Part shown: positions 47,930 through 63,000 of the stretch, piece after piece
How the letters are laid out: each line of letters begins with the position of its first letter
Numbering within the stretch: the stretch's first letter is position 1
Assembly: GCF_003992675.1 (NCBI RefSeq)
Contig: NZ_RZMZ01000013.1
Coordinates: forward strand, 62,001-126,000
Length of the DNA stretch: 64,000 bases
From: Flagellimonas marinaquae
Lineage (GTDB): Bacteria > Bacteroidota > Bacteroidia > Flavobacteriales > Flavobacteriaceae
Direction of reading: 5' to 3'
Notes under the pieces: model-generated
Databases searched by the model: none
What the model was told of the DNA's origin: nothing
The model's input: only the letters and a program-made list of their open reading frames with translations
Position numbers and translations under genes: made by a program

Positions 47930-48491
47930 AGAAAGTAGCTTTCACAGGAAGCGAACTTTTACCCAGTCCCTAAGTTTTATCAGGCTTTTCACTTTTTTCT
48001 TTTGTAAAAGAATGGATTTAGAACTCCTTTAATTCACTTGTTTTAAGTGATATTCATGAAAAACGAACCGGTGTAAATCATTGATTTTCAAAATAATGTA
48101 TCTGATTATTCCGTTGCCCAAAATTTATTGTCTTTTCCCAAGTACCACAAAGTATCAACTCGTTTCAACTTAGAAAGTAAGAGGGTCGACTATATCCTTA
48201 AAGTTCTATAGAACTTTGATTCATTTTTAATTTGTAGACATTCTACCACAATACACTCTTGTACGGAATCTGAAAGATTCGAGAAATGAATTGATTTGTC
48301 AAGGAGCAAACTGAAAGGGCGCATTTTTAAGTTGGAAGGAAACACCCCATCGAGATAACTGGTCCATATCGGTGTGCGCCTTACTCACTTAAGCGTTGTA
48401 TTCCCAAGGCCCCCAATGGGTCTTATATTTGGATGTTTCGGGTATCCCTTTCATCATTTTGACTCGATGAACTTATGTGAAAAATCCTGTG
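47930..48491. other. long intergenic region, no gene seen
   Basis: A gap of about 560 bases before the first GTAAC operator. No open frame with a start and good codon use was found on either strand. It contains an 18-base perfect palindrome (48200-48217), an orphan -7 box TATATTTG (48424-48431) with no evident gene after it, and a T-rich stretch near 47990. A non-coding RNA here is possible but not shown. Confidence 0.6.
48200..48217. repeat. 18-base perfect palindrome
   Basis: AAAGTTCTATAGAACTTT is self-complementary with no loop base and is followed by a T-rich stretch (ATTCATTTTTAATTTG). It could be a regulator site or part of a weak terminator for the DUF2157 unit, 270 bases upstream. 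Confidence 0.6.
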
Positions 48492-48535
48492 TAACATACG
48501 TTACTGCCATCACCATAACAATAGATTAATTTTAT
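48492..48535 (+). promoter_or_regulatory. GTAAC-N4-GTTAC operator with -7 box, peroxiredoxin promoter
   Basis: GTAAC (48492-48496), four bases, GTTAC (48501-48505); after 22 bases a -7-like box TAATTTTA (48528-48535). The spacing is identical to three other promoters in the window. The 5-4-5 inverted repeat and a position near -41.5 are typical of CRP/FNR-family activator sites. Confidence 0.72.
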
Positions 48536-48573
48536 CATTTAAAATAATTACAATAAATTATACTTATATTATT

Positions 48574-49239
48574 GTGGAAAACTCTTATGTAGAAAAGGAA
48601 AAAGTAAATCAGATGCCACGGATTGGGGATTTTGCACCCGATTTTGAAGCCGTGACCACAAAAGGTAAGATCAAGTTCTCGGAATTTGCCAAGGATAAAT
48701 GGACCGTAATGTTCTCCCACCCTGCAGATTTTACACCTGTATGCACTACCGAAATGAGTGGCTTTGCACAAAGAAAACCTGAATTCGAGGCTTTGAACAC
48801 CGAGCTTCTTGGTTTAAGCATCGACAGTATCCACGCTCATTTGGGTTGGGTGCATAGCGTTAGGGAAAACACGGGTGTTTATTTTGATTTTCCGATTATT
48901 GCTGATTTGGACATGAAGGTTTCCAAATTATATGGAATGCTTCAGCCCAACGAGAGCGAAACTGCTGCGGTGAGGGCAGTATTCTTTATCGACCCATCCA
49001 AAAAGATTAGATTGATCATGTACTATCCATTGAACGTTGGACGTAACATGGACGAGATTCTTAGAGCTTTGGAGGCCCTTCAAACTTCTGATGAGCATAA
49101 AGTCGCTATGCCATTGGATTGGAAAAAAGGAGACAAGGTAATTGTGGGCGCTCCAAAAACCTTGGATGAACTGAATGCGCGTTTGGCAGATGATTCCTTG
49201 GAAAAAGTGGATTGGTACTTGGCTAAAAAAACAATTTAA
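48574..49239 (+). CDS. peroxiredoxin, Prx6/1-Cys-like type
   Basis: The 221-residue protein contains MFSHPADFTPVCTTEMSGFA, with the peroxidatic Cys at residue 57. The long C-terminal part (LGLSIDSIHAHLGWV and the end with DWKKGD) is of the Prx6 type. Family knowledge: it reduces H2O2 or organic peroxides, and may act on persulfides. The chosen start is GTG; an ATG at 48613 (MPRIGDF) gives a 208-residue protein with Cys44, closer to classical Prx6, and is possible. It is first in a unit with the persulfide dioxygenase. Confidence 0.88.
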   Translation: MENSYVEKEKVNQMPRIGDFAPDFEAVTTKGKIKFSEFAKDKWTVMFSHPADFTPVCTTEMSGFAQRKPEFEALNTELLGLSIDSIHAHLGWVHSVRENTGVYFDFPIIADLDMKVSKLYGMLQPNESETAAVRAVFFIDPSKKIRLIMYYPLNVGRNMDEILRALEALQTSDEHKVAMPLDWKKGDKVIVGAPKTLDELNARLADDSLEKVDWYLAKKTI

Positions 49240-49252
49240 TAACTTTCATCAT

Positions 49253-49280
49253 GGGCATCTTGCTTTTAAGGTGCCCTTTA
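49253..49280 (+). terminator. hairpin between peroxiredoxin and persulfide dioxygenase
   Basis: GGGCATCTT (49253-49261) and AAGGTGCCC (49268-49276) form a 9-base stem with one G-T pair and a six-base loop, followed by a short T/A stretch. The T run is weak, so it may only partly stop transcription (attenuator) and set the ratio of the two genes. Confidence 0.5.
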
Positions 49281-49292
49281 AAACATTATTCT

Positions 49293-50621
49293 ATGGAAAT
49301 AAAACAGTTTGAATACAAACCCTTGGCCCACTATTCTTATGCCATCGTGGACAATGGTGAAATGGCCGTTATAGATCCTGAAAGAAATCCGATGCAGTAT
49401 TATGCTTTTGCTAAGGATCATGATGCCAAAATAACCGCGGTTATAGAAACCCATCCACATGCCGATTTTGTGAGTTCCCATTTACAAATCCACAACGAAA
49501 CAGGAGCCCCTATTTATCACAGTAAAGATTTGGGTGCCGACTATGAATATGAACCTTTTGATGAAGGCCAAAGCATTATGGTAGGTAATATCAAAGTCTC
49601 GGCCTTGAATACCCCAGGGCACTCTCCTGATAGCATTACCATTGTTGCAGAAAAAGATGGAAAAACTGCACTATTTACTGGTGACACCCTTTTTATTGGG
49701 GATGTGGGAAGACCAGATTTACGCGAAAAAGCAGGTAATATGACCGCGAAGCGTCAAGAACTGGCCGAAATGATGTACGATACCATCCAAAATAAATTCA
49801 AGGACTTACCCGATGAAGCCTTGGTATACCCTGCCCATGGCGCGGGATCCTTGTGCGGAAAAAACCTTAGCTCCGACAACAGCAGCACCCTAGGCAATGA
49901 AAGAATGGGCAACTGGGCATTTAAACCACAATCGAAAGAAGAATTTGTTCATACCATTTTGGACAGTCAGCCCTTTATCCCATCCTATTTTGGGTTCAAT
50001 GTAGACACCAACAGACAAGGCCCTGAAAATCTGAGAACCTCCCTAGCCAAAATACCCCTTCGATTAAATACCGATACAGATGGCTTAATTGTGGATGTCA
50101 GGGATGAATCCGAATTTAAAAAAGGCCACCTGCAGGGAAGCATCAACATTATGGCGGTTTCCGAAAATGATAAATTTGAAACGTGGTTGGGCTCAATCGT
50201 AGCACCAAAAGAGCCGTTTCATTTGGTTATCGGAAATCCAAAGGATTTATCTAATATCTTGGAAAGAGTATCCAAGATTGGTTACGAAACACAATTACAA
50301 TCCATCATTACATTGGGCAAGGAACATTTGGTAAAAAGCGCCATTTTGAATCTGGAGGATTTTCAGAACAACCCATCTAATTATACTATTGTTGACATTA
50401 GAAACCAAAGTGAGCTAAATGATGGAAAGTTTTTTGAGCAGTCAATTGCACATCCTTTGAACGAATTGAGGGATACGATGAATGAAATACCTACAAATAA
50501 GCCCATTGTGGTACATTGCGCAGGCGGCTACAGGAGTGCGGCGGGAAGCAGCATTCTAGAGCGTGGACTTAGGAATACAACCATTTTTGACCTCAGTGAA
50601 AACGTTAACGATTTCATTTAA
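49293..50621 (+). CDS. persulfide dioxygenase-rhodanese fusion, CstB-like
   Basis: From the ATG at 49293 the protein has 442 residues in three parts. Part 1 (1-250) is an MBL domain with ETHPHADFVSSH near residue 52 and TGDTLFIGDVGRPDL near 130; the HxHxD motif ends in Phe (HADF), which leaves a mononuclear-type site, as in ETHE1-like persulfide dioxygenases. Part 2 (about 260-350) is a rhodanese fold with no active-site Cys. Part 3 (about 350-442) is a rhodanese with VVHCAGGYRSA, Cys409. This is the architecture of S. aureus CstB, which oxidises thiol persulfides and makes thiosulfate. The start at 49251 is rejected as it crosses the hairpin. Confidence 0.88.
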   Translation: MEIKQFEYKPLAHYSYAIVDNGEMAVIDPERNPMQYYAFAKDHDAKITAVIETHPHADFVSSHLQIHNETGAPIYHSKDLGADYEYEPFDEGQSIMVGNIKVSALNTPGHSPDSITIVAEKDGKTALFTGDTLFIGDVGRPDLREKAGNMTAKRQELAEMMYDTIQNKFKDLPDEALVYPAHGAGSLCGKNLSSDNSSTLGNERMGNWAFKPQSKEEFVHTILDSQPFIPSYFGFNVDTNRQGPENLRTSLAKIPLRLNTDTDGLIVDVRDESEFKKGHLQGSINIMAVSENDKFETWLGSIVAPKEPFHLVIGNPKDLSNILERVSKIGYETQLQSIITLGKEHLVKSAILNLEDFQNNPSNYTIVDIRNQSELNDGKFFEQSIAHPLNELRDTMNEIPTNKPIVVHCAGGYRSAAGSSILERGLRNTTIFDLSENVNDFI

Positions 50622-50645
50622 TAAATTCATTTTCACCTGTTTTAT

Positions 50646-50689
50646 GTAACTGGGGTTACTTGATATGAACGCCATGCCAAATACCTTTG
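50646..50689 (+). promoter_or_regulatory. GTAAC-N4-GTTAC operator with -7 box, cydAB promoter
   Basis: GTAAC (50646-50650), TGGG, GTTAC (50655-50659); after 22 bases a perfect -7 box TACCTTTG (50682-50689), 18 bases before cydA. A TTG at 50660-50662 also gives a -33 element with 19-base spacing. Confidence 0.75.
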
Positions 50690-50707
50690 AGTCAAATTTT
50701 CAATACT

Positions 50708-52054
50708 ATGGAAACTGAAATTCTCGCTCGGATACAATTTGCCTTCACGGTAGCTTTTCATTATATCTATCCACCCCTTAGTATTGGTATTGGCCTCATT
50801 ATGGTGATTATGGAGGGGCTTTACCTTAAAACCGGAAACAAACATTATGAGGTTCTCACACGCTTTTGGCTAAAAATATTTGCCATAACCTTTGGTATCG
50901 GTGTGGCTACCGGAATTATCATGGAATTTGAATTTGGGACCAACTGGGCGGTATACTCTAGGTACGTTGGCGATATTTTTGGCAGTGCCTTAGCTGCTGA
51001 GGGATTATTTGCCTTTGGTTTGGAAAGTGCATTTTTAGGGGTTTTGATATTTGGTTGGAATCGCGTGTCTCCCAAAGTGCATTTTATATCGGCAATTGGG
51101 GTGTTTTTGGGATCTATGTTCTCAGCCGTTTGGATTGTAGTGGCCAATAGCTGGCAACAGACACCGGCAGGTTATCATATCGTTGGCGAAGGGTTTAATG
51201 CAAGAGCAGAGGTCACCGATTTTTGGGCCATGGTTTTTAACCCCTCTAGTGTTGATAGAATTATTCATGTGTGGCAAGGAGCCTTTTTGGCAGGGGCGTT
51301 TTTAGTCCTAAGTGTACATGCGTATTACCTTTTGAAGGGCAGATATATAGAAATCTCCAAGAAGGCATTTAAAATAGCCTTGGGGGTGGCGACCGTAATC
51401 TCGTTGACACAATTGGTATCAGGCCATAGTTCCGCGGATGGCGTTGCCGAGAACCAGCCAGCAAAATTGGCTGCAATGGAAGGACACTACGAACCCTCTG
51501 CTCCAGCAGACCTATACCTCTTTGGGTGGGTGGACAACCAAACGCAGGAAGTGACAGGTATTAAGGTGCCTGGCGGTCTGTCTTTTTTGGTGCATCAGGA
51601 TTTTGAGGAGCCTGTGACGGGTTTAAATGCATTCCCTGAAGAAGATAGGCCGAGTCAGGTGAATGCCGTTTTTCAATTTTATCACATCATGATTTCAATT
51701 GGTATGTTTTTGATAGGCCTCACCCTATATGCAAGCTATCTCTGGTGGAAAGGAACACTATTTGATAAAAAATGGCTACTGCGAATTTTTGCATTTTCCG
51801 TGCTCTTGCCCCAAATAGCAAATCAGGTGGGATGGTTCGCCGCAGAGATGGGCAGACAGCCATGGATTGTCTACGGTCATTTAAGAACAAGCGAGGGCTT
51901 TTCCCAAGAAGTCTCTTCCAATCAAATACTATTTTCGCTGATACTGTTCCTTGTGGTCTATACCTTACTCTTTCTATTGTTTATGTATTCTTTGAACAAA
52001 AAAATAAAACAAGGGCCCTACGATGAAGCTAAAAATGCATTAGAAATAATTTAA
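50708..52054 (+). CDS. cydA: cytochrome bd quinol oxidase subunit I
   Basis: The 448-residue protein has nine or so transmembrane helices. The start METEILARIQFAFTVAFHYI places the heme-ligand His near residue 18; the signature GRQPW lies near residue 383 in GWFAAEMGRQPWIVYG. The Q-loop between helices 6 and 7 is of the short type. It oxidises quinol and reduces O2 with high affinity and is not inhibited by sulfide in known cases. It has its own operator-bearing promoter and is followed by cydB 12 bases later. Confidence 0.95.
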   Translation: METEILARIQFAFTVAFHYIYPPLSIGIGLIMVIMEGLYLKTGNKHYEVLTRFWLKIFAITFGIGVATGIIMEFEFGTNWAVYSRYVGDIFGSALAAEGLFAFGLESAFLGVLIFGWNRVSPKVHFISAIGVFLGSMFSAVWIVVANSWQQTPAGYHIVGEGFNARAEVTDFWAMVFNPSSVDRIIHVWQGAFLAGAFLVLSVHAYYLLKGRYIEISKKAFKIALGVATVISLTQLVSGHSSADGVAENQPAKLAAMEGHYEPSAPADLYLFGWVDNQTQEVTGIKVPGGLSFLVHQDFEEPVTGLNAFPEEDRPSQVNAVFQFYHIMISIGMFLIGLTLYASYLWWKGTLFDKKWLLRIFAFSVLLPQIANQVGWFAAEMGRQPWIVYGHLRTSEGFSQEVSSNQILFSLILFLVVYTLLFLLFMYSLNKKIKQGPYDEAKNALEII

Positions 52055-52066
52055 CAAGACAATCAA

Positions 52067-53104
52067 ATGGAAACTTTTTTTGGTATAGATTATCCAACGC
52101 TTTGGTACTTAGTTGTAGGCCTTTTATTTTCCGGATACGCCATTTTGGAGGGATTTGATTACGGTGCCGGGGCATGGCACCTGTTCTTTAAAAAAGACTT
52201 AAGCCGTCGTATCGCCATTAACGCTATTGGACCTTTATGGGACGCCAATCAGGTGTGGCTCATTATTGGTGGTGGTGCGTTGTTCGCCGGATTTCCCGTA
52301 ATGTATGCCACTATGCTATCTGCCATGTACATTCCCTTTATGCTCTTCCTAATGTTGCTGGTGTTACGTTCTGCCGCTATAAAGTTCCGAAGTGCGGAAG
52401 AAATGAAATGGTGGCGAAAAACTTGGGATGTCATTTACTTTACCTCCAACATACTCATTGCCTTTTTATTAGGTGTGGTACTGGGAAATATATTACAGGG
52501 TTTTGAAATCGGCGAAAATTTTAGCTACCAAGGTGGTATTTTCTTCTCTTTCCTAAACCCCTACGCAATTATGGTCGGCTTAACAACACTATCAATATTC
52601 ATGACGCAAGGCGCTATTTTTTTGTTGTTGAAAACCGAAGGACGTTTGCATGCCAGATTAACGTTTCTACTTAAAAAAGGTATGATTTTCTTTATACTTA
52701 GTTTTGCGTTTACATCATTTTACACCCTTATCTATCTTCCTGGTGTAACCGATAATTTTAAAGCAAACCCAGTTTTTTTCATATTGCCAATCTTGGCTTT
52801 TTTGGCCGTTGCCAATGTACCTAGACTCGTATCCAAAAAGAAATATGCACCCGCCTTGGTATTTTCCTCATTGACCATGGCTTTTTTGTTGATGTTGGTT
52901 GCTTTTCAGCTATACCCGGTTTTACTGCCCTCCACAATAGACCCAGCACATAGTGTTACCATTTACAATGCCGCCTCTTCACAGAAGTCCCTAGGTATAA
53001 TGTTGACCATAGTCCTTATTGGAGCGCCGCTTTTAGCTGGTTATTTTCTTTTTTTATATAAAACTTTCCATGGTAAGGTCGAACTGGACGATACAAGCTA
53101 TTGA
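52067..53104 (+). CDS. cydB: cytochrome bd quinol oxidase subunit II
   Basis: The 345-residue protein has eight to nine transmembrane helices and starts with the CydB pattern (DYPTLWYLVVGLLFSGYAIL, EGFDYGAG, WDANQVWLIIGGGALFAGFP). It pairs with CydA. Same transcript as cydA. No CydX-like small ORF was seen immediately after it in the 174-base gap to the next operator. Confidence 0.94.
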   Translation: METFFGIDYPTLWYLVVGLLFSGYAILEGFDYGAGAWHLFFKKDLSRRIAINAIGPLWDANQVWLIIGGGALFAGFPVMYATMLSAMYIPFMLFLMLLVLRSAAIKFRSAEEMKWWRKTWDVIYFTSNILIAFLLGVVLGNILQGFEIGENFSYQGGIFFSFLNPYAIMVGLTTLSIFMTQGAIFLLLKTEGRLHARLTFLLKKGMIFFILSFAFTSFYTLIYLPGVTDNFKANPVFFILPILAFLAVANVPRLVSKKKYAPALVFSSLTMAFLLMLVAFQLYPVLLPSTIDPAHSVTIYNAASSQKSLGIMLTIVLIGAPLLAGYFLFLYKTFHGKVELDDTSY

Positions 53105-53217
53105 TCCAGCCTCAAAATTCAACACCTCGTATGTCTTAAGATAAACAACATCCATTGTTGTTTTCCATTATGCATAGTTATTCCGCAAAGCAAGCCCTGG
53201 GAACAGTTTGTTCATGG

Positions 53218-53261
53218 GTAACATAGGTTACTGTGCACACAGGACGCTTCATCTATATTTA
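53218..53261 (+). promoter_or_regulatory. GTAAC-N4-GTTAC operator with -7 box, sqr promoter
   Basis: GTAAC (53218-53222), ATAG, GTTAC (53227-53231); after 22 bases TATATTTA (53254-53261), one mismatch from TAnnTTTG, 17 bases before the start. The flanks CATGG... and ...TGTGC are shared with the tolC site. Confidence 0.72.
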
Positions 53262-53278
53262 TTGAAAATAATATAGCA

Positions 53279-54736
53279 GTGTCTAGAATTGTAATCTTAG
53301 GAGCAGGTATTGCAGGTCATGTAGCCGCTTCCCACTTACGTAGAAAACTACCCAAAGAGCATGAGGTTGTCGTTGTTTCACCAAACAGCAATTACCAATG
53401 GATCCCATCCAATATTTGGGTAGGAATCGGTAGAATGAAACCAAAGGACATCTTGTTCCCATTGGCACCTTTGTATGCAAAAAAGCATATCGATTATAAA
53501 CAGGCCAAAGCCATAAGTTTTTACCCGGAAGGAGATGCTGAGGAAGTAAAACCTTACGTGCTGGCAGAATACGTGGCAGGAGCAAATAAAGGAACCACAG
53601 AAAAAGTGACGTATGACTATCTGATCAATGCCACCGGTCCAAAACTAAACTTCGAGGCCACCGAAGGACTTTCTCCTGGAAAGAACAAAACACATTCCGT
53701 TTGTACCTATACCCATGCCGATGAGGCCTGGAACGCATTGAATGATCTGATTCAACAAATGAAACAGGGGAAAAAAGCCAAAATACTTATTGGAACAGGT
53801 CATGCAAAAGCCACCTGTCAAGGCGCGGCATTTGAATATATTTTAAATGTAGAGCAAGAATTGAGAAGGCACAAAGTGAGGGATATGGCCCAGATTACTT
53901 GGATTTCCAATGAATATCATTTGGGAGATTTTGGGATGGATGGCATGTTGATGAGTTATGGCAGCAATATCATGAAATCCAGTGAGATGGTAGAAATGAT
54001 TTTTGAAGACAGGGGAATTTCTTGGATTTTAGGTGCCGGGGTCAATAAAATAGAAGATGGTGTAGCCCAATACGAAACCTTGGAAGGCGACTATAAAACC
54101 GAAAGTTATGATTTTGCCATGCTCATACCCTCATTTTCGGGTCATGGTTTTAAGGCCTACAATAAGGATGGCGAAGAGATTACGAACAAACTTTTTAAAG
54201 GGTTCATGATCGTGGATGCGGATTATACACCCAAACCCTACGAGGAATGGAGTGTACAGGATTGGCCAGAAACCTATCAAAATCCATCGTATTCTAATAT
54301 TTTTGCTCCAGGCATTGCCTTTGCACCGCCTCACAGCATTTCCAAACCACGGAAGAGCAAAAATGGAACAGATATTACACCTGCTCCTCCAAGAACCGGA
54401 ATGCCATCGGGTATTACGGCCAAATTAGTGGCAGATAACATCATCGAGATGATCAAACACTCTAATAATGAACTTCATCACAAAGGATCAATGGGCAACA
54501 TGGGTGCTGCATGTATCGCTTCAGCAGGTTTTGGTATGACCAAGGGAAGCGGCGTGAGCATCACCACATATCCCATTGTGCCCGATTACAATAAGTATCC
54601 AGATACCCAGGGCAGGAAACTAGGCAAGACTTTTGGTACCATAGGTCTTGCAGGTCACTGGCTTAAGTTGGCCCTGCACCATGCCTTCATATATAAAGCA
54701 AAAATGAAACCCTTTTGGTGGTTGATTCCTGAATAG
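53279..54736 (+). CDS. sqr: sulfide:quinone oxidoreductase-like flavoprotein
   Basis: The 485-residue FAD enzyme starts (GTG) with SRIVILGAGIAGHVAASHL, the dinucleotide-binding motif. Two cysteines sit at the redox-active positions: Cys180 in GHAKATCQGAAF and Cys412 in NMGAACIASAGFGM. The C-terminal KPFWWLIPE tail is an amphipathic membrane-binding segment. It oxidises sulfide to polysulfide/persulfide and passes electrons to quinone. The long central insert (near 290-370) suggests one of the less-studied SQR types rather than type I. It has its own operator and is followed by a 45-residue gene six bases later. Confidence 0.85.
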   Translation: MSRIVILGAGIAGHVAASHLRRKLPKEHEVVVVSPNSNYQWIPSNIWVGIGRMKPKDILFPLAPLYAKKHIDYKQAKAISFYPEGDAEEVKPYVLAEYVAGANKGTTEKVTYDYLINATGPKLNFEATEGLSPGKNKTHSVCTYTHADEAWNALNDLIQQMKQGKKAKILIGTGHAKATCQGAAFEYILNVEQELRRHKVRDMAQITWISNEYHLGDFGMDGMLMSYGSNIMKSSEMVEMIFEDRGISWILGAGVNKIEDGVAQYETLEGDYKTESYDFAMLIPSFSGHGFKAYNKDGEEITNKLFKGFMIVDADYTPKPYEEWSVQDWPETYQNPSYSNIFAPGIAFAPPHSISKPRKSKNGTDITPAPPRTGMPSGITAKLVADNIIEMIKHSNNELHHKGSMGNMGAACIASAGFGMTKGSGVSITTYPIVPDYNKYPDTQGRKLGKTFGTIGLAGHWLKLALHHAFIYKAKMKPFWWLIPE

Positions 54737-54742
54737 AAAGTT

Positions 54743-54880
54743 ATGACACGAAGAATATCCAAATACAAACGATTTCTAATGATGAACCCAATAATACAGT
54801 TCTTTAAGTTCATCTATTTAAGCATCAAAATAATGATTGTAGTCGCTGGTGGACATGGGGGGACCCGAGAGATCAATTGA
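54743..54880 (+). CDS. 45-residue small protein coupled to sqr
   Basis: The ATG lies six bases after the sqr stop. The 45 residues are a basic start (MTRRISKYKR), a hydrophobic helix (about 17-34, with IIQFFKFIYLSIKIMIVV) and a glycine-rich tail AGGHGGTREIN. The pattern suggests a membrane-attached peptide. It is too short for standard gene finding and has no ortholog that I can name, but the amphipathic composition and tight spacing support that it is real. Confidence 0.5.
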   Translation: MTRRISKYKRFLMMNPIIQFFKFIYLSIKIMIVVAGGHGGTREIN

Positions 54881-55108
54881 ACATCTATTGCTGATTTCTA
54901 CTTGCCATTTTCTGTTGAAAACACCAGGGTTTGTTAAGGCTATATAAACGCTTTAAAGTATAGTGCTGCAGGTTTATTAGCTTTTCATGTAAACCACTTT
55001 AGTGATTCTGAAAATAGGTTAAGGAGAGACTTACATTTGCCCTATTGTGGATAACTCTGACTGTCAAGCTCGGCTTTGAACACTTTATGTGTATTTAAGC
55101 TTGTTTTG
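54881..55108. other. intergenic region between the small sqr-linked gene and tRNA-Arg
   Basis: No open frame with convincing codon use on either strand and no clear repeat. No terminator hairpin with a T run was seen. Confidence 0.5.
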
Positions 55109-55180
55109 TAGCCCCGGCAAGAATCGAACTTGCATCTAAAGTTTAGGAAACTTCTATTCTATCCATTGAACTACGGGGCC
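55109..55180 (-). tRNA. tRNA-Arg (anticodon CCT)
   Basis: On the minus strand 72 bases fold as a tRNA. The acceptor stem is GGCCCCG/CGGGGCT with a G-T first pair and discriminator A; the anticodon loop TTCCTAA between GAAGT and ACTTT gives anticodon CCT. The T arm GCAAGTTCGATTCTTGC is intact. No encoded CCA is present. It sits in the middle of the sulfur/respiration gene module. Confidence 0.93.
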
Positions 55181-55271
55181 ATTCCATAAAATGGACTGCA
55201 AAAATAGGGTTTTTGCCGTATCTTATGCAACCCCTTACATCTATTTCTCTTTGGATTTCTTTGGAACAGCC

Positions 55272-55676
55272 TTATGATCTTTTTGCCTTTTCCTCCTTTA
55301 AGATTTTTTCGAGATAAGAACGGGACAAGGGTTTGTCCACATAACCCGAAATCATGCCGTTTTTTTTGGCAATGGTTCTATCCGAAGCATTCGTAAAAGC
55401 GGAGAGCACATACACACTGGGCAGTTGGTGTTCCTTAAACAGATTCTTGAGGTTTTCCAAAAAATCCCAGCCGTTCATTCCGTCCATTACCAAATCCAAA
55501 AAAATAATATCGGGCAGTCTATCGTGCTCCTCAATATATCCGAAACAGGCTTGTATCCCTTCCTCACCGCTGGAGCAGGTCACAATATCGAAGTTACCTT
55601 GGGATTGCTGTATGCAGTACCGGGTCGCGAACTGCGACACCAAGTCATCGTCTATAATAAACGTCGTGAGTTTCAT
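55272..55676 (-). CDS. single-domain response regulator (receiver only)
   Basis: From the ATG at 55676 the protein has 134 residues. It starts KLTTFIIDDDLVSQF (acidic pocket), with the phosphoacceptor Asp in IIFLDLVMDGMNG near residue 60 and the conserved Lys in GYVDKPLS near 110. No output domain follows, so it cannot bind DNA and probably acts by protein contact. No partner kinase is in the window. A longer ORF from 55721 lacks a start suited to the family. Confidence 0.9.
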   Translation of the reverse strand: MKLTTFIIDDDLVSQFATRYCIQQSQGNFDIVTCSSGEEGIQACFGYIEEHDRLPDIIFLDLVMDGMNGWDFLENLKNLFKEHQLPSVYVLSAFTNASDRTIAKKNGMISGYVDKPLSRSYLEKILKEEKAKRS

Positions 55677-55706
55677 GTAGGGTCTATTATGTAAGTTTGG
55701 GACATC

Positions 55707-55714
55707 CAAAGCTA
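55707..55714 (-). promoter_or_regulatory. -7 box of the response regulator gene
   Basis: The minus strand reads TAGCTTTG, a perfect TAnnTTTG, with the ATG at 55676 30 bases downstream, showing that this gene is transcribed separately from the operon upstream. Confidence 0.45.
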
Positions 55715-55778
55715 TAAGCAAGCCCTCAATAAACCATCCATTTTCGTTGTGTGGACGAAATATACCGTCAATCCACGC

Positions 55779-56192
55779 CTAATGGGGCAATCTGGCCCGT
55801 ACTAGGCCATACACAAAGGCTCCCAAAATAGCACCTATCAGCACGATAACTATGGGCCAATAGCCGGCTCCCACCAAAATATAAATCGGTCCGGGACAAG
55901 CACCTGCCAAGGCCCAACCCAATCCAAAAAGCGTTCCTCCTAGGATATACCTGGCAAACGATTTTTCCTTGTCTGGAATACTGATGAGTTCCCCTGTAAA
56001 TGATTTGACCTTCGATTTTTTAATCCAAAAGACCAAAACAACACCAACGGCCAAAGCAGAACCAATGATACCGTACATATGAAAAGAATCGAACTGGAAC
56101 ATTTCATAAATCCGGAACCACGAAGCGGCTTCCGACTTGTATAGGACAATTCCCAAAAAGGTTCCCAATAAAATATAAACTATATTCTTCAT
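55779..56192 (-). CDS. YeeE/YedE-like (DUF6691) sulfur transport protein
   Basis: The 137-residue protein has four hydrophobic segments. GTLFGLGWALAGACPGPIYI (about residues 86-105) is the YeeE-type half motif with a Cys, as in thiosulfate-uptake channels. It is the second half of a two-protein YeeE pair; the first ORF overlaps it by four bases. It is the last gene of the long minus-strand operon. Family knowledge suggests uptake or export of thiosulfate or persulfide sulfur. Confidence 0.88.
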   Translation of the reverse strand: MKNIVYILLGTFLGIVLYKSEAASWFRIYEMFQFDSFHMYGIIGSALAVGVVLVFWIKKSKVKSFTGELISIPDKEKSFARYILGGTLFGLGWALAGACPGPIYILVGAGYWPIVIVLIGAILGAFVYGLVRARLPH

Positions 56193-56746
56193 GCTTCAAA
56201 AATTAGGGGAAACAAGAGGTGAACCATAGCCAGTCCGCCAATAAAAAAGCCAATAACCGCAATCAAAGAGGGTCGTTGCAGGTTACTCAGCCCTGAAATG
56301 GCATGCCCAGAAGTACATCCACCAGCGTAACGAGTTCCAAAACCAACCAGAAAACCGGCAACCAAAAGAATAATCCACACCTTGGGATTCGCCAACGCTT
56401 CTATACTAAAAAGCTCTGTAGGCAAATAGGCGGCCCCAGCACTTTCAAAACCGAGGTCTTTGAGTTTAATTACGGTTTGTTCCGATATATCCACAGCGGG
56501 GTTCGGGGACAACCATTGTGCTCCCAAAAAACCACCAAGCACGGAACCAAGAACCACCATTAGGTTCCATCGTTTGGATTTAGTGTCCACTTTGAAGTAA
56601 TCCGAGAATTTTCCAGCCCCGCCCAAGGAGCAAAATGTCTCCAAGTTGGAGGACATTCCAAATTTTTTGCCCATGAGTATAAGCAGTGCCATGATGATAG
56701 CGATAAGTGGGCCCGCCACATACCAAGGCCAAGGTTGATAAAGCAT
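56189..56746 (-). CDS. YeeE/YedE family sulfur transporter
   Basis: From the ATG at 56746 the protein has 185 residues and several membrane segments. [20 protein letters not shown] (about residues 135-154) is the YeeE signature with the conserved Cys and H. The four-base overlap with the DUF6691 gene shows they are a pair. A TTG at 56767 would add seven residues. In sulfur modules such pairs move thiosulfate or related sulfur anions across the inner membrane. Confidence 0.88.
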
Positions 56747-56807
56747 TTTCGTGAGGTTTTTGAGCAAAGGTCACGAAAATGCCTTACATATCAAATAGTG
56801 TAGCTGA

Positions 56808-57011
56808 CTAACAGCAGTTTTTATCAGCATCAGAAACCCCGAATTTCTTCAGGATATCTTCCAACAAACACCACTTGGTCAAAGATGACTGTAATAGATT
56901 AGCCCCTACAAAAGCGGTAAACCATAACCAGTTGATATTTACATATACGGCCAAGATAAGGCTGATGAGCACAAAACTTCCCGCTACACCTCTTACGATT
57001 CTATTTCTCAT
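56808..57011 (-). CDS. YgaP-like (DUF2892) membrane protein
   Basis: From the ATG at 57011 the protein has 67 residues: MRNRIVRGVAGSFVLISLIL, then a second hydrophobic segment and a C-terminal KKFGVSDADKNCC. The arrangement is that of DUF2892 (the transmembrane part of YgaP-type proteins, which are rhodanese-linked). A Cys pair ends the protein. It lies inside the long operon between the PII-like gene and YeeE. Confidence 0.82.
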   Translation of the reverse strand: MRNRIVRGVAGSFVLISLILAVYVNINWLWFTAFVGANLLQSSLTKWCLLEDILKKFGVSDADKNCC

Positions 57012-57021
57012 TTTTTGATTT

Positions 57022-57327
57022 TTAAACGGTTCTTTCGATAGGTATCTCCACCGCCCTGATCGGGTTGGTGGTCTCACTTTCTGTGTTGAATTGTTTGATC
57101 AATCTGAACAATTCCGTTGCTTTTTCCTCTTCAGTAAAAGAGAAGAACATATTGGAGGCCGCTCCGCCCTTTTCACTTGGGAACCAGCTACTGGTGTACA
57201 TCAAAGGCGCTGCACTTTTGTATCCGTCAATATCAGATCCGCTAAAGCTTTCCACGCCTGCTCTCTTGAACAGCTTGAAGACTTCGCTCTTATATTCCTC
57301 GACCGTGGTAACAATGATCATTTTCAT
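57022..57327 (-). CDS. PII-like small protein
   Basis: The 101-residue protein begins MKMIIVTTVEEYKSEVFKLF, and the order of strands and helices (MIIVTTVEEYKSEVFKLFKR, GVESFSGSDIDGYK, MFFSFTEEEKATELFRLIKQ) follows the beta-alpha-beta-beta-alpha-beta PII fold. PII-like proteins of the DUF3240 type occur next to RND pumps in other bacteria; membership here is inference. The uridylylation T-loop tyrosine of GlnB is not evident. It starts one base after the RND stop, so it belongs to the pump operon. Confidence 0.55.
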   Translation of the reverse strand: MKMIIVTTVEEYKSEVFKLFKRAGVESFSGSDIDGYKSAAPLMYTSSWFPSEKGGAASNMFFSFTEEEKATELFRLIKQFNTESETTNPIRAVEIPIERTV

Positions 57328-57328
57328 C

Positions 57329-60300
57329 TTACTTGTAGTTTTTACGTTCTATCATATAATACACCAATGGCACTACCAATAGCGTCAAAATGGTGGACAC
57401 TATGGTTCCTCCCATGAGTGAAATGGCCAATCCTTGAAAGATAGGGTCGAACAAAATCACAAAAGCTCCAATAACAACGGTTCCCGCTGTCAACAAAATG
57501 GGCGTGGTACGTACGGCCCCGGCTTCGATAACGGCTTGCTTAAGGGGAACTCCATCATCCAAGCGTAGGTTCACAAAGTCGATAAGCAAAACCGAATTCC
57601 GCACCATGATTCCTGCCAACGCAATCATCCCGATAAATGAGGTTGCGGTAAAAAAGGCCCCCAACATCCAGTGCCCGAGCACGATTCCGATCAACGAAAG
57701 TGGAATGGCCACCATCATCACCACAGGTGCCTTAAAGTTTTGGAACCAGCCTACGATCAACATGTAAATGATTACGATGACCCCAAGGAAGGCAATTCCC
57801 AAGTCTCGGAACACCTCCAAGGTCACCTGCCATTCACCATCCCATTTCACGGTATAGTCATCTTCGAACTGAGGTTGTTCCATGTAAAGTTCATTGATGG
57901 AATACCCCTTGGGTAGCTCCAATTGGTTCAACTTATCCGTCATCCCTAAAATGGCATACACGGGACTTTCCAGTTCGCCAGCCATATCGGACATTACATA
58001 CACTACTCTTTTCTGATTTTTTCTGTAGATGCTCTTGGCCTTGATTCCTTCTTTGACTTCAACCAAATCCCCGACGGAGACCATACCTCCCTTTTGGGAT
58101 GCTATTTTCAATTGTTTGATCTCATCCAAACTGGATTTATCCTTCTCGCTGATGGACAGTACAATCCCGATTTGATCAAAAGCATCCTCTCGATATATAT
58201 GGGATACCGGTTGTTCACGGAAAGCCATTGCCATTACCTGAACAATTTGTTGTGGAGTGATACCGTAGAGCATCGCTTTTTCCTTGTCAATCACAAAATC
58301 GTACTCCACTTGATCATCCTCGACCATCCAATCTACATCCACTACGTCGGTAGTATTGTTCAAGATGCCCTTTACCTTATCGGCCAATGCAATTTGCTTT
58401 TCATAATCTGGACCGTACACCTCGGCTACAATGGTTGAAAGTACAGGGGGTCCTGGTGGCACCTCCACAATCTTGATGTTTGCATCGTACTTTTTGCCCA
58501 ATTCTTGGATTTTTGGCCTGAGCAATTTGGCGATATCATGGCTCTGCGCACTCCTGTCGTGCTTGTCCACCAGGTTTACCTGGATATCGGCCATATTGCT
58601 ACCTCCGCGAAGATCGTAGTGTCTAACCAATCCATTGAAAGTTATGGGTGCAGATGTTCCCACATAAGTCTGGTAGTTGACCACTTCCGGACGTGTGGAG
58701 AGATATGCGCCTATTTCCTTGGTCACCGCCGATGTTCTTTCCAAGGTGGTTCCCTCCGGAAGGTCTATGACCACTTGAAACTCGTTCTTGTTATCAAAAG
58801 GGAGCATTTTTACAGCAACCGATTTGGTAAAGAACATTCCCATAGATGCAAGTAGCAAAAAGAAGGTGATGCCCAAGAACATCCATCTCTTTTTCCGGCT
58901 CTCTATCAAAGGACTTTCAAAGCGCGAATAGGCTTTGTAAATAAACGTGTCCTGAATTTCGACGGGTTCCTTTTCCTTTTTCTTCTTTTTGTCCTTTTCT
59001 CTTAGGAAAATGTATCCTAAATAGGGTGTAATGGTCAATGCTACAAACAGTGACAACAACATCGCAATCGAAGCTCCAATAGGCATGGGCGACATGTAAG
59101 GACCCATTAGACCAGATACAAAGGCCATGGGCAATACGGAGGCAATTACCGTAAATGTGGCCAGAATGGTGGGGTTACCTACTTCGTTGATAGCATAAAT
59201 TGCTGCATCCTTAAAAGGCAACCGTTTCATTTTAAAGTGGCGATGCATGTTCTCCGCTATAATGATGGAGTCGTCCACCACAATACCCGTTACGAACACC
59301 AACGCAAACAAGGTAATTCGGTTCAAGGTATAATCCAGCATGTAGTAACTGAGCAAGGTCAATGCAAAAGTGATGGGAACCGAAAGAAAAACCACAAGTC
59401 CTCCTCTCCATCCCATGGCCAACATCACCACAAAAGTCACTGCGATGATGGCCCCGATCAAGTGCATCAATAGTTCGGATACCTTCTGCGAAGCGGTCTG
59501 CCCATAGTTACGGGTCACCTCAACTTTTACTTCATCTGGAAGCAATGTTGTTTTTAGGTGGTCCACTTTTTCCAAAACCACATCGGCAATCTTCATGGCA
59601 TCGGCTCCCTTGCGCTTGGCGATGGAAATGGTCACTGCTGGATATTCCGATTTATAGGTCTCTGCTTTTTCACTGGCAGCTCCAAATCCAAGGGAAACAT
59701 AGTTTTTCGGCAGCTCAGGACCGTCCAAAACAGTAGCCACTTGCTTCAAATAAATGGGTTGACCTTGTTTGGTGCCCACAATCAGGTTTTCTAGGTCCTC
59801 TTGGGTTTCCAAGAAGTTTCCAGTGCTGATATGAAACTCGGTATCGTTGGAAAGGAAGTTGCCGGAATCCATTTGCTGGTTATTGGCTTGGATCATTTGG
59901 GCCACAGTCAACATATCTAGGCCCGACTCTGCCAGTTTATCCTTATCCACCACCACGCGAAGTTGGGGGCTGCGCCCTCCTATCTTTTTGGTAATGGAAA
60001 CCCCGTTTACCTTTTCAATCTCGTTGATGAGCTCTCCTGATATCTGCCTCAACTGAAAATCATTATACTCTTCACTCCAAAGTGTCAATGCCAGCATGGG
60101 CACATCGTCAATGGCACGGGTTTTTACCAAAGGCATGGTCACTCCGGCAGGCATTTGGTCCATATGCTTATTAATCTCGTCGTACAAACGTACCAAGGAC
60201 CTTTCGATATCCTCTCCTACATAAAACTGCACAATGGCCATCCCTTGCTCTTGCATGGAGGTGGTGTATACATACTCTACGCCTTTGATGTTCGATATAA

Positions 60301-60523
60301 TTTTTTCGAGTGGTTTTGTTATCCTGGATTCCACCTCGGTTGGGCTGGCCCCTGGATATCCTACGAAGATATCCGCCATGGGCACATCAATCTGTGGCTC
60401 CTCTTCCCTTGGAATAAGGAAGGAACTGTACACCCCAATGACCATAAATACAATCATGAGAAGCACCGTTAGTTTGGAGCTGATAAACCCTTTCGCTATT
60501 TTTCCTGCAAGTCCGTCTTTCAT
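57329..60523 (-). CDS. RND efflux permease (AcrB/HAE-1-like)
   Basis: The 1064-residue protein has the RND layout: TM1 (about 15-35), two large periplasmic loops, and 12 TM segments. PREEEPQIDVPMADIFVGYP near residue 39 and TGIVVDDSIIIAEN at about 412-425 (TM4, with the paired Asp for proton transfer) are family motifs. It is related to AcrB/MexB and the Bacteroidota HAE-1-like pumps; no metal-binding signature was seen. It is read with the adaptor and TolC upstream and the PII-like and YeeE genes downstream. Confidence 0.92.
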   Translation of the reverse strand: MKDGLAGKIAKGFISSKLTVLLMIVFMVIGVYSSFLIPREEEPQIDVPMADIFVGYPGASPTEVESRITKPLEKIISNIKGVEYVYTTSMQEQGMAIVQFYVGEDIERSLVRLYDEINKHMDQMPAGVTMPLVKTRAIDDVPMLALTLWSEEYNDFQLRQISGELINEIEKVNGVSITKKIGGRSPQLRVVVDKDKLAESGLDMLTVAQMIQANNQQMDSGNFLSNDTEFHISTGNFLETQEDLENLIVGTKQGQPIYLKQVATVLDGPELPKNYVSLGFGAASEKAETYKSEYPAVTISIAKRKGADAMKIADVVLEKVDHLKTTLLPDEVKVEVTRNYGQTASQKVSELLMHLIGAIIAVTFVVMLAMGWRGGLVVFLSVPITFALTLLSYYMLDYTLNRITLFALVFVTGIVVDDSIIIAENMHRHFKMKRLPFKDAAIYAINEVGNPTILATFTVIASVLPMAFVSGLMGPYMSPMPIGASIAMLLSLFVALTITPYLGYIFLREKDKKKKKEKEPVEIQDTFIYKAYSRFESPLIESRKKRWMFLGITFFLLLASMGMFFTKSVAVKMLPFDNKNEFQVVIDLPEGTTLERTSAVTKEIGAYLSTRPEVVNYQTYVGTSAPITFNGLVRHYDLRGGSNMADIQVNLVDKHDRSAQSHDIAKLLRPKIQELGKKYDANIKIVEVPPGPPVLSTIVAEVYGPDYEKQIALADKVKGILNNTTDVVDVDWMVEDDQVEYDFVIDKEKAMLYGITPQQIVQVMAMAFREQPVSHIYREDAFDQIGIVLSISEKDKSSLDEIKQLKIASQKGGMVSVGDLVEVKEGIKAKSIYRKNQKRVVYVMSDMAGELESPVYAILGMTDKLNQLELPKGYSINELYMEQPQFEDDYTVKWDGEWQVTLEVFRDLGIAFLGVIVIIYMLIVGWFQNFKAPVVMMVAIPLSLIGIVLGHWMLGAFFTATSFIGMIALAGIMVRNSVLLIDFVNLRLDDGVPLKQAVIEAGAVRTTPILLTAGTVVIGAFVILFDPIFQGLAISLMGGTIVSTILTLLVVPLVYYMIERKNYK

Positions 60524-60539
60524 TGTTGGCTTTTTTGGG

Positions 60540-61628
60540 TTATTGAATTCGTACTTTAGCTCCGTTGTAGAGTTTTCCTTCTGCCGATACGATGTACTGG
60601 TCTCCTATGGACAGGCCTGACAGCACTTCTACTTCGTCACCGAAATTCTCGCCCAGTCGTAACCACCTAAGTAAGGCAACATTATCTTGGCCCAAAGTAT
60701 ACACCCCTGTCAACTGCCCTTTATGCACCAGGGCTTCGGACGGAACGGTCACAACCGTTTTACCTTCACTTCCGTTTTCCGCCTCGAGCCTAACGGTGGC
60801 ATACATACCTGACAAAATCTTGGCGCCTGTTTTGTCCAATGAAACTTTCATCACATATTGTCCGCCCGTATGTTGCGCGGATGCACTGAGTTCGGACACT
60901 TTACCCGTAATCGTGGTATTCAATGCTTTTACCAGAATGTGCGCTTTGGTACCCACACTTATTCCTGAAATGTTGTTCTCAGCCACTTTGGCCTCCACCT
61001 CAAATCCACCGGGAGACTCTACGGAAACCAGCGGGACCCCTGGGTTCGCCATATCGCCTTCATCAATGTAAGTGTTGGTAACCACCCCACTGAAGGGCGC
61101 ACGAATATTGGCGTAGGCAAATTGGGAGTTCACCTCGTTCTTCATTTGGTTTGCGGCTTCCAATCGAGCTTTGGCCATTTCATAGCGGGCCGTCATATCA
61201 TCCAGCTCTTTTTGGGAGGCACTGTTTTCTTTAAAAAGGTTTTGGAACCTTTCATAGTCCTTTTTTGCATTGTTGAAAGCCACTGTTGCTTCAGTAATAG
61301 AAGCTTCAACTTGCGCTTTTTTAGCGCGCAGGTCCACATTGTTGATGGAAATCAAAAGATCTCCCTTGTTTACCTTCTGACCTATTTTCACGGGAAGGTA
61401 TTCCACATAGCCCATCATTCGGGTACTTAGAGTGGCGCTGTTCACCGCTTTTATTTGACCACTTCCGGCCAAGATCGCTGAGCTATCGCCCATATCCACA
61501 TTGGCAACGGTTACCGGAATTGCCTCTGTGTTGTCCTCAGTCTGTTTTTCGTCGCTTCCACATCCCATTAGTAAGAATGCCAAGGAGGCGGTTAGTAGCA
61601 AACTTTTATATATCGTATTGTTTTTCAT
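60540..61628 (-). CDS. RND membrane fusion (adaptor) lipoprotein
   Basis: The 362-residue protein has a lipobox (LTASLAFLLMGCGSDEK). The barrel-sandwich lipoyl halves (VKIGQKVNKGDLLISINNVD near 80 and ANIRAPFSGVVTNTYIDEGD near 172) flank a coiled-coil hairpin (about 100-165). The C-terminal barrel and MP domain follow. It connects the RND pump with the outer-membrane channel. The gap to the permease is 16 bases. Confidence 0.92.
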   Translation of the reverse strand: MKNNTIYKSLLLTASLAFLLMGCGSDEKQTEDNTEAIPVTVANVDMGDSSAILAGSGQIKAVNSATLSTRMMGYVEYLPVKIGQKVNKGDLLISINNVDLRAKKAQVEASITEATVAFNNAKKDYERFQNLFKENSASQKELDDMTARYEMAKARLEAANQMKNEVNSQFAYANIRAPFSGVVTNTYIDEGDMANPGVPLVSVESPGGFEVEAKVAENNISGISVGTKAHILVKALNTTITGKVSELSASAQHTGGQYVMKVSLDKTGAKILSGMYATVRLEAENGSEGKTVVTVPSEALVHKGQLTGVYTLGQDNVALLRWLRLGENFGDEVEVLSGLSIGDQYIVSAEGKLYNGAKVRIQ

Positions 61629-61635
61629 CTTGCAA

Positions 61636-62937
61636 TTATTCTTTGGTTAAAAATGTTAATAAGGATTGTGCTTGATTGTATTCAAAAATGGTCTGATAAT
61701 AGGCCAATTGCTTTTCGGCATAGGTGGCTTCGGCCATCAATAAATCGGTTGTTTTCTCCAAGCCCTCTTTGAATCGGTTGGTGCGTATCCTCAATGATTC
61801 TTCGGATTGCTCCATAGCCAATTTTGAGGTCTGGAGCCTGCTTTCTGCATCTTCGACCATCCGTTTGGTGCGTTGAAGCTCCATAGAACTTTTGGCGACG
61901 TACTGTTCGTATTCCTGTTTTGCTTTTTCATAACTTGTTTTGCTCTTTCCCACTTTGGCAAACCGCTGGGAACCTTTAAAAACATCCCAGCTCAAACTTG
62001 CCCCAATAATGTATCCACTGGCATCGGCCTGAAAGATTTGATCATCGTACATTTCGTAGCTGGCGAATGCATTCAACCTTGGCATGAAGGTCATGTTTTC
62101 CGCCTTCATGTTGGCTTTGTATGCTTCTGACACTAAATCCATGGCTTTCACATCTGCCCTATTTTCCAGTGAGCCTTCCGAGTTTTCAACTAGGTTGTAT
62201 GGTACCAGTTCTTCGGAAGGTTTGTAGACCACATCACCCTGTTCATTCATTAAAAATGATACATAGTCAGATGCATTCTGGACATTGCTCTTGGCCGTTT
62301 TTAATTGATCGGAAACCTCGGTGACCCGAACTTTAACTTCCAACAAATCCGATTTTTGAAGCAAGCCTTGATCATAGCTGTTCTGTGCCATATTCAAGTT
62401 AGCATTGGCAGCTTCAAAAGCTTTTTCCAAAACCGCTACAGCTCTGTGGGCCAGTTGTAATTGCCCAAAGGCCTTCCTAGCTTCAAAGTCTAAATAATCC
62501 CTAGTGCGCATGGCTTGGAGCTCTTTGGCTTCCATCGTCGTCTTTGCCGCTTTGCGTTGGTAAAACCCGTCCAAATTGATCAATGGTTGTTCCACCGAAA
62601 CTATGGTAGCATAGTTTTCCACCTGATCTGGATCGTTTAACAGGGCTGGGTTAAAATCGGCTTGGGTCAAGATGGCTTGGTTCAGTTTAGAACCAAAAGC
62701 CATTAATGGGTTTGTGGTGGCCAATCCGGTATGCGACACAGCGATCTGTGGCAAAAAGATGGAATTGGAGAACCTATAGTCGTATTTGGCCATTTGGGCT
62801 TCCTGCTCAGAAACCTTTATGCTTGCATTGGATTCCTGGACCTTGGCCAATACCTCTTCCAACGAAATCTGTATATGGTCTTGGGCGAGTACCGCTTGCA
62901 TAAGCCCGAACGCAATAAAAGTTAAAATATGCCTCAT
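61636..62937 (-). CDS. TolC family outer-membrane efflux protein
   Basis: From the ATG at 62937 the protein has 433 residues, starts with a signal peptide (MRHILTFIAFGLMQAVLA) and is made of two TolC repeats with long coiled-coil helices (VLEKAFEAANANLNMAQNSY, and the second half YEKAKQEYEQYVAKS). An ATG at 62949 would give four more residues; the operator architecture places the transcript start near 62952, favouring 62937. It is the first gene of the 7-gene operon. Confidence 0.9.
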   Translation of the reverse strand: MRHILTFIAFGLMQAVLAQDHIQISLEEVLAKVQESNASIKVSEQEAQMAKYDYRFSNSIFLPQIAVSHTGLATTNPLMAFGSKLNQAILTQADFNPALLNDPDQVENYATIVSVEQPLINLDGFYQRKAAKTTMEAKELQAMRTRDYLDFEARKAFGQLQLAHRAVAVLEKAFEAANANLNMAQNSYDQGLLQKSDLLEVKVRVTEVSDQLKTAKSNVQNASDYVSFLMNEQGDVVYKPSEELVPYNLVENSEGSLENRADVKAMDLVSEAYKANMKAENMTFMPRLNAFASYEMYDDQIFQADASGYIIGASLSWDVFKGSQRFAKVGKSKTSYEKAKQEYEQYVAKSSMELQRTKRMVEDAESRLQTSKLAMEQSEESLRIRTNRFKEGLEKTTDLLMAEATYAEKQLAYYQTIFEYNQAQSLLTFLTKE

Positions 62938-62956
62938 TGGTAATATCATTTTGAGG

Positions 62957-63000
62957 CAAAATTATCATGATACAACTACCTGCACAGTAACATTAGTTAC
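62957..63000 (-). promoter_or_regulatory. GTAAC-N4-GTTAC operator with -7 box, tolC-RND-YeeE operon promoter
   Basis: GTAAC-N4-GTTAC (62987-63000) reads the same on both strands. On the minus strand, 22 bases after it, TAATTTTG (62964-62957) is a perfect -7 box, 19 bases before the TolC ATG at 62937. The flank GTTACTGTGC is identical to that at sqr. Confidence 0.78.

Follow-up and report, generated by a model that had tools for sequence, protein, structure and literature searches.

The stretch analyzed here (the window) comprises 64 kb of Flagellimonas marinaquae DNA and corresponds to C13:62001-126000 of an assembly of 3.42 Mb in 18 contigs. Its last part carries genes for sulfide oxidation, a cytochrome bd oxidase and an efflux pump, whose promoters share an inverted repeat, GTAAC-N4-GTTAC, at a constant distance from a TAnnTTTG-like box. 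The regulon defined by this operator is real and exceeds its first description in size; a CRP/FNR-type protein encoded in the same island is a strong candidate for its regulator.

Genes and operators of the sulfide-oxidation island

The operators, -7 boxes and genes are listed below along the window; positions prefixed with C13 are those of the contig.

48491..48504, + strand: operator GTAACATACGTTAC of the peroxiredoxin/persulfide-dioxygenase promoter, near-identical in G341 and G349 of the same genus
48527..48534, + strand: -7 box TAATTTTA, 22 bases past the peroxiredoxin operator, fitting the consensus box of the logo
48574..49239, + strand: peroxiredoxin (AhpC-TSA, 1-Cys Prx C-terminal; Pfam, NCBIfam)
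49251..50621, + strand: putative ETHE1-like persulfide dioxygenase with rhodanese domains, first copy (Pfam Lactamase_B and Rhodanese)
50646..50659, + strand: operator GTAACTGGGGTTAC of cydAB, with a near-identical match in G349
50682..50689, + strand: -7 box TACCTTTG of cydAB, overlapping the listed TTG start of cydA
50687..52054, + strand: cydA, cytochrome bd subunit I (Pfam PF01654); ATG at 50708 is a likelier start than the listed TTG
52067..53104, + strand: cydB, cytochrome bd subunit II (Pfam PF02322)
53218..53231, + strand: operator GTAACATAGGTTAC of sqr, first copy, with an identical 43-base match in G341
53254..53261, + strand: -7 box TATATTTA of sqr
53279..54736, + strand: putative SQR-like FAD protein, first copy (Pfam)
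55779-56192 and 56189-56767, - strand: two half-size YeeE-type sulfur transporter genes (Pfam Sulf_transp)
57329-60523, - strand: RND permease (Pfam)
60540-61628, - strand: membrane-fusion protein (Pfam)
61636..62949, - strand: TolC-type outer-membrane protein (NCBIfam), with which the RND operon begins
62957..62964, - strand: -7 box TAATTTTG of tolC, first base 62964
62987..63000, - strand: operator GTAACTAATGTTAC of tolC-mfp-rnd
63347..64000, - strand: second SQR-like gene, truncated where the window ends, with its operator just outside at C13:126664-126677

Exactly four perfect copies of GTAAC-N4-GTTAC were detected in the window by pattern search, while 100 dinucleotide shuffles gave a mean of 0.05 and a largest count of 1. 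At all four sites 22 bases intervene between the palindrome and the TAnnTTTG-like box, both by eye and by pattern. The original prediction had reported these four sites, the exact distance of 22 bases from the gene-side end of the palindrome and the lack of any further perfect copy in the window; all of this holds on exhaustive counting, except that its first coordinate, 48492, was one too high.

The first SQR-like protein scored 59.4 bits against the NCBIfam model SQR_III_seleno (cut-off 525). Past the window end are genes for a YgaP-like membrane protein, a protein of the fatty-acid-hydroxylase (FA-hydroxylase) family, a rhodanese, an HMA protein and a cytochrome c; a second ETHE1-rhodanese protein (persulfide dioxygenase 2), a SulP transporter and a CRP/FNR regulator are also encoded there. 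The regulator gene (C13:133066-133713, 215 amino acids) is located at the island end. The statement that the regulator is not in the window was therefore true, yet the gene is close, in the same island and 7 kb beyond the window.

Distribution of the operator over the genome

Ten perfect palindromes were found genome-wide, seven of them inside 19.3 kb (C13:110491-129764). The backwards control pattern occurred 24 times, so that the palindrome is not over-represented by raw count; the signal is instead the clustering, the gap and the spacing, which are non-random. The three palindromes outside the cluster have no TAnnTTT box at the 22-base spacing; a stop-free frame of 100 amino acids or more contains each of two of them but not the third. 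When palindrome, 22 bases and box were combined into one composite pattern, all nine matches with no or one mismatch were inside the 20.8 kb of the sulfide-oxidation island (C13:110491-131272). They represent eight operators, one of which faces both ways. A composite with two mismatches is located between the CRP/FNR gene and sulP (C13:133019-133061). A genome-wide scan had been suggested as a check of the predicted four-promoter regulon. It places the nine best composites in the island, although the raw palindrome count stays below control; the four promoters are real, but the set is larger, with about nine or ten promoters in one island.

The palindrome at C13:127103-127116 (L014:7104) has correctly spaced boxes on both sides and lies between divergent genes of the FA-hydroxylase family and for the YgaP-like protein. 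This single operator may serve two promoters. Two-sided sites were seen repeatedly in many relatives.

Promoter geometry

The TAnnTTTG housekeeping box occupies -12 to -5 in mapped transcription starts of Flavobacterium psychrophilum (excerpts of PMC9723704). With the box placement borrowed from these starts, the 22 intervening bases place the operator between -48 and -35, centered at -41.5. A logo from 270 unique promoters, all chosen because their core was perfect and five or more of the six box letters fitted, gave the consensus TnT-GTAAC-N4-GTTAC-tG with the box TAnnTTT(G/A) and a 22-base spacer without a -33 element. As far as sequence can tell, this layout is the class II activator architecture, the same as that of NtcA, and class II activation is very probable. 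The earlier proposal that a 5-4-5 repeat at about -41.5 acts here as in CRP/FNR activation is thus supported by the offset of 22 and by the box position in F. psychrophilum.

Conservation of the operator in relatives

A regulator match at E <= 1e-20 was present in 255 of 299 genomes of the family. The 40 loci compared first (792,551 bases) are the best-scoring regulator matches and hence near orthologs, and the same bias applies to the 50 regulator-positive genomes below; counts across relatives take no account of shared ancestry. Around the 40 orthologs, GTAAC was the commonest 5-4-5 palindrome by a wide margin, with 129 copies in 38 loci where 0.46 were expected. The gap was 4 in these 129 copies, and any other gap from 0 to 15 occurred at most three times. 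With a box counted when at least five of six letters matched, the offset was 22 in 121 orientations and any other value from 0 to 45 in at most eight; 114 of the 129 palindromes had a box on at least one side. A chance origin of the sites is rejected on these counts together with the window shuffles.

Two further groups consist of loci from named organisms. Of the 59 loci L171-L229, 58 had the palindrome, with 189 copies in total (171 with a box), and the Allomuricauda/Flagellimonas-group loci L150-L170 contained 56 in 18 of 21 loci (38 with a box). Both groups overlap partly with the 40 loci, and L171-L229, which have some genomes in common with them, include some Allomuricauda, so the sets are not independent.

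Whole genomes were scanned for the composite with at most one mismatch, again with the backwards control. In the 50 regulator-positive genomes the composite averaged 7.70 matches and its control 1.94; 46 genomes exceeded the control, two equalled it and two fell below it. By contrast, 20 regulator-negative genomes, defined by no match at E <= 1e-20, showed no excess (0.50 versus 1.05); these are the 20 listed among 44, many of them small genomes.

Footprinting was anchored on gene starts and not on the motif, and identity in the half-sites was compared with that in other columns. Identities of operator, box and other columns were 0.96, 1.00 and 0.72 for ethe1b (n=22), 0.94, 0.84 and 0.58 for rhodanese (n=21), and 1.00, 0.98 and 0.71 for sqrII (n=11). 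For sulP (n=22) they were 0.90, 0.92 and 0.76 in a stretch that partly codes for the regulator. The desat footprint (n=18) was poor (0.88, 0.52 and 0.60), possibly from misaligned gene starts. Loci, genomes and footprints agree that orthologous promoters retain the repeat, the loss of which would have spoken against the original prediction.

Regulon content

Promoters were tabulated in 130 rows, 121 from the 40 loci and nine from the F. marinaquae genome, in which one site is counted twice. The first downstream gene was ethe1b in 26 rows, sqrII in 11, rhodanese in nine, crp in eight, prx in eight (the F. marinaquae promoter among them), tolC in seven, yeeE1 in seven, sulP and desat in five each, ethe1a in four, cydA and sqrI in two each and cytc in one. 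The tolC rows consist of five in relatives and two from the single F. marinaquae site, counted double. Homologs of ethe1, sqr, rhodanese, prx, yeeE, sulP or tolC were downstream in 79 of the 130 rows, and the eight crp rows, all in relatives, drive the regulator ortholog. By the predicted functions of its members, the regulon is a set for disposal of sulfide and sulfane sulfur, in which the bd oxidase is likely a sulfide-resistant partner. Bacteroidota are among the phyla in which sqr and pdo transcripts increased under NaHS in sediment (excerpts of PMC12345210).

The FA_hydroxylase-domain protein (L014:7122-8072) is a recurring regulon member (five of 130 rows). A protein of about 125-132 amino acids with its own operator was seen upstream of the regulator in L113, L121, L123, L124, L131 and L116; those of L113 and L116 are DUF983 proteins by Pfam.

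The operator, its gap, spacing and box, their conservation, the regulon content and the co-occurrence with the regulator are all supported by these comparisons.

The candidate regulator

The island regulator contains a cNMP-binding domain (PF00027, 38.8 bits, cut-off 27.5) and a Crp-type helix-turn-helix (HTH) domain (HTH_Crp_2, PF13545). The latter scored 26.7 bits on the protein, just below the cut-off of 27, and 29.2 bits, above it, in the genome search. With a beta-roll and a Crp-type HTH the protein belongs to the CRP/FNR superfamily, and its AlphaFold model (mean predicted local distance difference test score 81.3) is of CRP/FNR type and aligns with CRP, FNR, NtcA and Vfr. Most near-full-length structure alignments had a root-mean-square deviation around 13, which is taken to reflect a different domain placement. 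Structure prediction and comparison confirm the CRP/FNR fold and nothing more.

The only cysteines of the protein are C82, C88 and C89, all in the beta-roll. They are invariant in 41 of 41 orthologs, which have no further conserved cysteine column. Among 40 wider relatives, C82 and C88 are kept in 36, and 33 of these are accompanied by a sulfur gene within the sequence retrieved, as are two of the four that do not keep the pair. A pair of conserved sensor-domain cysteines and operators before sqr, pdo and rhodanese genes are both features of the persulfide-sensor class. The conserved cysteines are compatible with persulfide sensing, as a fit and not a demonstration.

The recognition helix reads SRVVISR, and Val188 is present in 41 of 41 orthologs. 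The two other Crp-type HTH proteins found in the genome have Glu in the helix (TESAIR, TESLIR).

Residue 188 and operator type

A relative of the regulator at E <= 1e-40 was found in 130 of 395 genomes of the phylum, family members included. From these hits forty further loci were picked by hand, 20 mostly high-scoring hits from outside the family and 20 weaker or paralogous ones sought for Glu types. Position 188 was Val in 15 and Glu in 25 of them. The GTAAC palindrome occurred in 11 of the 15 Val loci versus one of the 25 Glu loci (Fisher p 6e-6, ignoring ancestry). Beside Glu regulators the commonest box-anchored palindromes were GTGAT (six in four loci) and GTGAC (two in two loci, tied with an unrelated one). 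At the genome level, GTGAY composites numbered 129 versus 47 in the control and GTAAC composites 34 versus 51 in 20 Glu genomes; in 20 Val genomes the corresponding numbers were 74 versus 55 and 171 versus 39. In the majority of Glu-type loci, sulfur genes of the same types are present.

Within one genus, seven Glu-type genomes (G490, G421, G518, G522, G380, G568 and G502) have in common a 14-mer with mixed half-sites, GTAACATTAGTCAC, at the 22-base spacing.

Proposed regulation and its alternatives

A dimer of the protein encoded by C13:133066-133713 would bind GTAAC-N4-GTTAC at -48 to -35, where it would stand in for a -33 element and bring RNA polymerase with the Bacteroidota housekeeping sigma factor to the TAnnTTTG box at -12 to -5. 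This would switch on SQR, the persulfide dioxygenases, rhodaneses and peroxiredoxin, together with transporters for sulfur and for sulfate/sulfite, the efflux pump TolC-RND and the bd oxidase. As inducer, a sulfide-derived persulfide or polysulfide is most likely, which would be sensed at C82, C88 and C89 in the beta-roll, at the position of cyclic AMP (cAMP) in CRP. We infer the binding, activation over repression, the signal and the sensing by cysteines from the patterns described above. As a whole, a class II activator of a sulfide/sulfane-sulfur regulon that is induced by persulfide or polysulfide through its cysteines is quite probable. On comparative evidence the island CRP/FNR protein is very likely the regulator of the sites, in keeping with the earlier prediction that a single regulator of this type governs sulfide oxidation as well as cydAB and the TolC/RND/YeeE operon. 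A sulfide-derived signal is likely, and we lean towards cysteine-based sensing.

Several observations weigh against this reading. In the F. marinaquae genome, the composite with at most three mismatches is rarer than the backwards control (86/62 versus 206/187), so weak matches elsewhere in the genome carry no weight, and autoregulation was searched for without finding an operator upstream of the regulator gene itself. The enrichment is weaker within the genus (60 genomes, 6.33 versus 3.43; 42 above, 6 equal, 12 below), one genome of which (G301) has no match at all, and loci L110 (same genus) and L130 lack a perfect palindrome. Of the promoter rows, 31 of 130 have a downstream gene unmatched to the F. 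marinaquae island and four have no open reading frame; Pfam assigned ten of the 31 unmatched proteins as TauE, DUF983, molybdopterin oxidoreductase and YgaP-like (two each), with two unassigned. C89 is not retained in all wider relatives. The segment with the cysteines is where the model has its lowest confidence (residues 83-88 below 50), and therefore no sensor geometry can be read there. As to residue 188, the Val loci L274, L287, L288 and L308 have no palindrome and the Glu locus L307 has one; all 20 Val genomes come from a single family, to which 11 of the 20 Glu genomes do not belong, so that residue and taxonomy are partly confounded.

In the Allomuricauda loci L110 and L170, sites of the type GTAAC-N4-GTAAC were seen, with one mismatch in the right half; the helix is nearly unchanged (SRVVVSR in L110).

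The same operator and regulator could instead respond to low oxygen or nitric oxide (NO), like FNR, DNR or HcpR2, with the sulfide genes switched on because anoxia brings sulfide with it. The CRP/FNR fold would suit such a signal, and cydAB is a usual target of low-oxygen and NO regulation. The operator, moreover, equals the HcpR2 consensus in excerpts of PMC1274295. Against this, hcp (PF03063) was found in none of 41 genomes searched (controls positive in 5 of 14), and the three cysteines are all in the beta-roll, none being N-terminal. The matched downstream genes are mostly sulfur genes, and persulfide dioxygenase consumes oxygen. A low-oxygen or NO signal is thus unlikely.

It is very unlikely that the regulator represses from these sites and is relieved by sulfide, in the manner of SqrR, BigR and CstR, which are repressors. 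Such a fixed position at -41.5 ahead of the -7 box, in promoters that lack a -33 element, is how class II activators such as NtcA are arranged, and for a repressor the spacing of exactly 22 bases would be unnecessary. Binding by a different regulator (one of the other two CRP/FNR proteins or a member of another family), with the island protein a mere neighbor, has on its side that no operator was found before the island gene but is highly improbable, since presence or absence of the island-type regulator tracks the sites across 70 genomes, residue 188 co-varies with operator type, the other two CRP/FNR proteins have Glu helices, and the sites drive the regulator ortholog itself in eight promoter rows.

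For the activator responding to sulfide-derived persulfide, a broader generalization can be made, for and against which the chances appear even to us. Flavobacteriaceae, and much of the Bacteroidota, would have a master regulon for the sulfide response under an undescribed branch of CRP/FNR proteins; these would sense persulfide by C-x5-C(C) in the former cyclic-nucleotide pocket, and Val or Glu at 188 would switch between GTAAC and GTGAY with the kind of target constant. If the proposed regulation holds, one DNA pattern would predict sulfide-disposal genes in many flavobacterial genomes, and nature would supply a set of CRP/FNR regulators whose specificity differs by one residue while their targets stay similar.

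Comparison with known systems

Identity with characterized CRP/FNR proteins was considered and rejected for cAMP-type CRP, FNR and HcpR2. The protein scored 55.7 bits against the equivalog model of cAMP-type CRP (cut-off 266). The [4Fe-4S] cluster of FNR needs N-terminal cysteines, a set that is absent from a protein with only C82, C88 and C89. Against the NtcA equivalog model the score was 40.5 bits (NCBIfam cut-off 244.95); the GTA-N8-TAC operator of NtcA at about -41.5 does match. HcpR2, with a role in nitrosative stress, matches in operator, but hcp is lacking from the genomes searched and the helix residue differs.

The excerpts of PMC1274295 give the predicted HcpR2 operator as GTAACnnnnGTTAC in Clostridium, Bacteroides, Thermotogales and others, which is letter for letter the GTAAC-N4-GTTAC found here, and tie residue 181 of CRP to an operator base. 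The operator and the principle of residue specificity were thus already known. A departure from Glu-181 is invoked there for the HcpR2 operator; the residue is Pro in HcpR2 and Val188 in the island regulator. HcpR2 targets hcp, while the island regulator has a sulfur regulon and invariant beta-roll cysteines. The regulator branch, Val at residue 188 and the gene set were not met in these portions of the paper.

NtcA, of cyanobacteria, binds GTAN8TAC at about -41.5 as a class II activator, and in one case the distance to the -10 box is 22 nucleotides (excerpts of PMC3898017). Its helix is similar (RVTVTR versus RVVISR), but the signal for NtcA is 2-oxoglutarate and its targets are nitrogen genes, whereas the island regulator is associated with sulfur genes. 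Crp of Acinetobacter baumannii is 50% identical to that of E. coli and, by the excerpts of PMC7315123, is not known to control sulfide genes. The best sequence match in PDB was 3dv8, a Crp/Fnr protein of Eubacterium rectale (E 6e-16, residues 49-214 covered), which retains the C-x5-C spacing of the island regulator.

Searches of open-access PMC listed no paper on the regulation of sulfide oxidation in Bacteroidota. Those on sulfane sulfur, CRP/FNR proteins and flavobacteria likewise turned up no report of the island regulator; subscription journals and preprints were outside this scope, so absence from print is not established.

Genes for sqr, persulfide dioxygenase or rhodanese are controlled in other bacteria by SqrR and BigR (ArsR family), CstR (CsoR family) and FisR (a sigma-54 activator), with cysteine-based sensing. 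To our knowledge none of these four is a CRP/FNR protein, and the island regulator thus differs from all of them in protein family. If the proposed regulation is true, CRP/FNR joins the protein families that serve as sulfide-response regulators.

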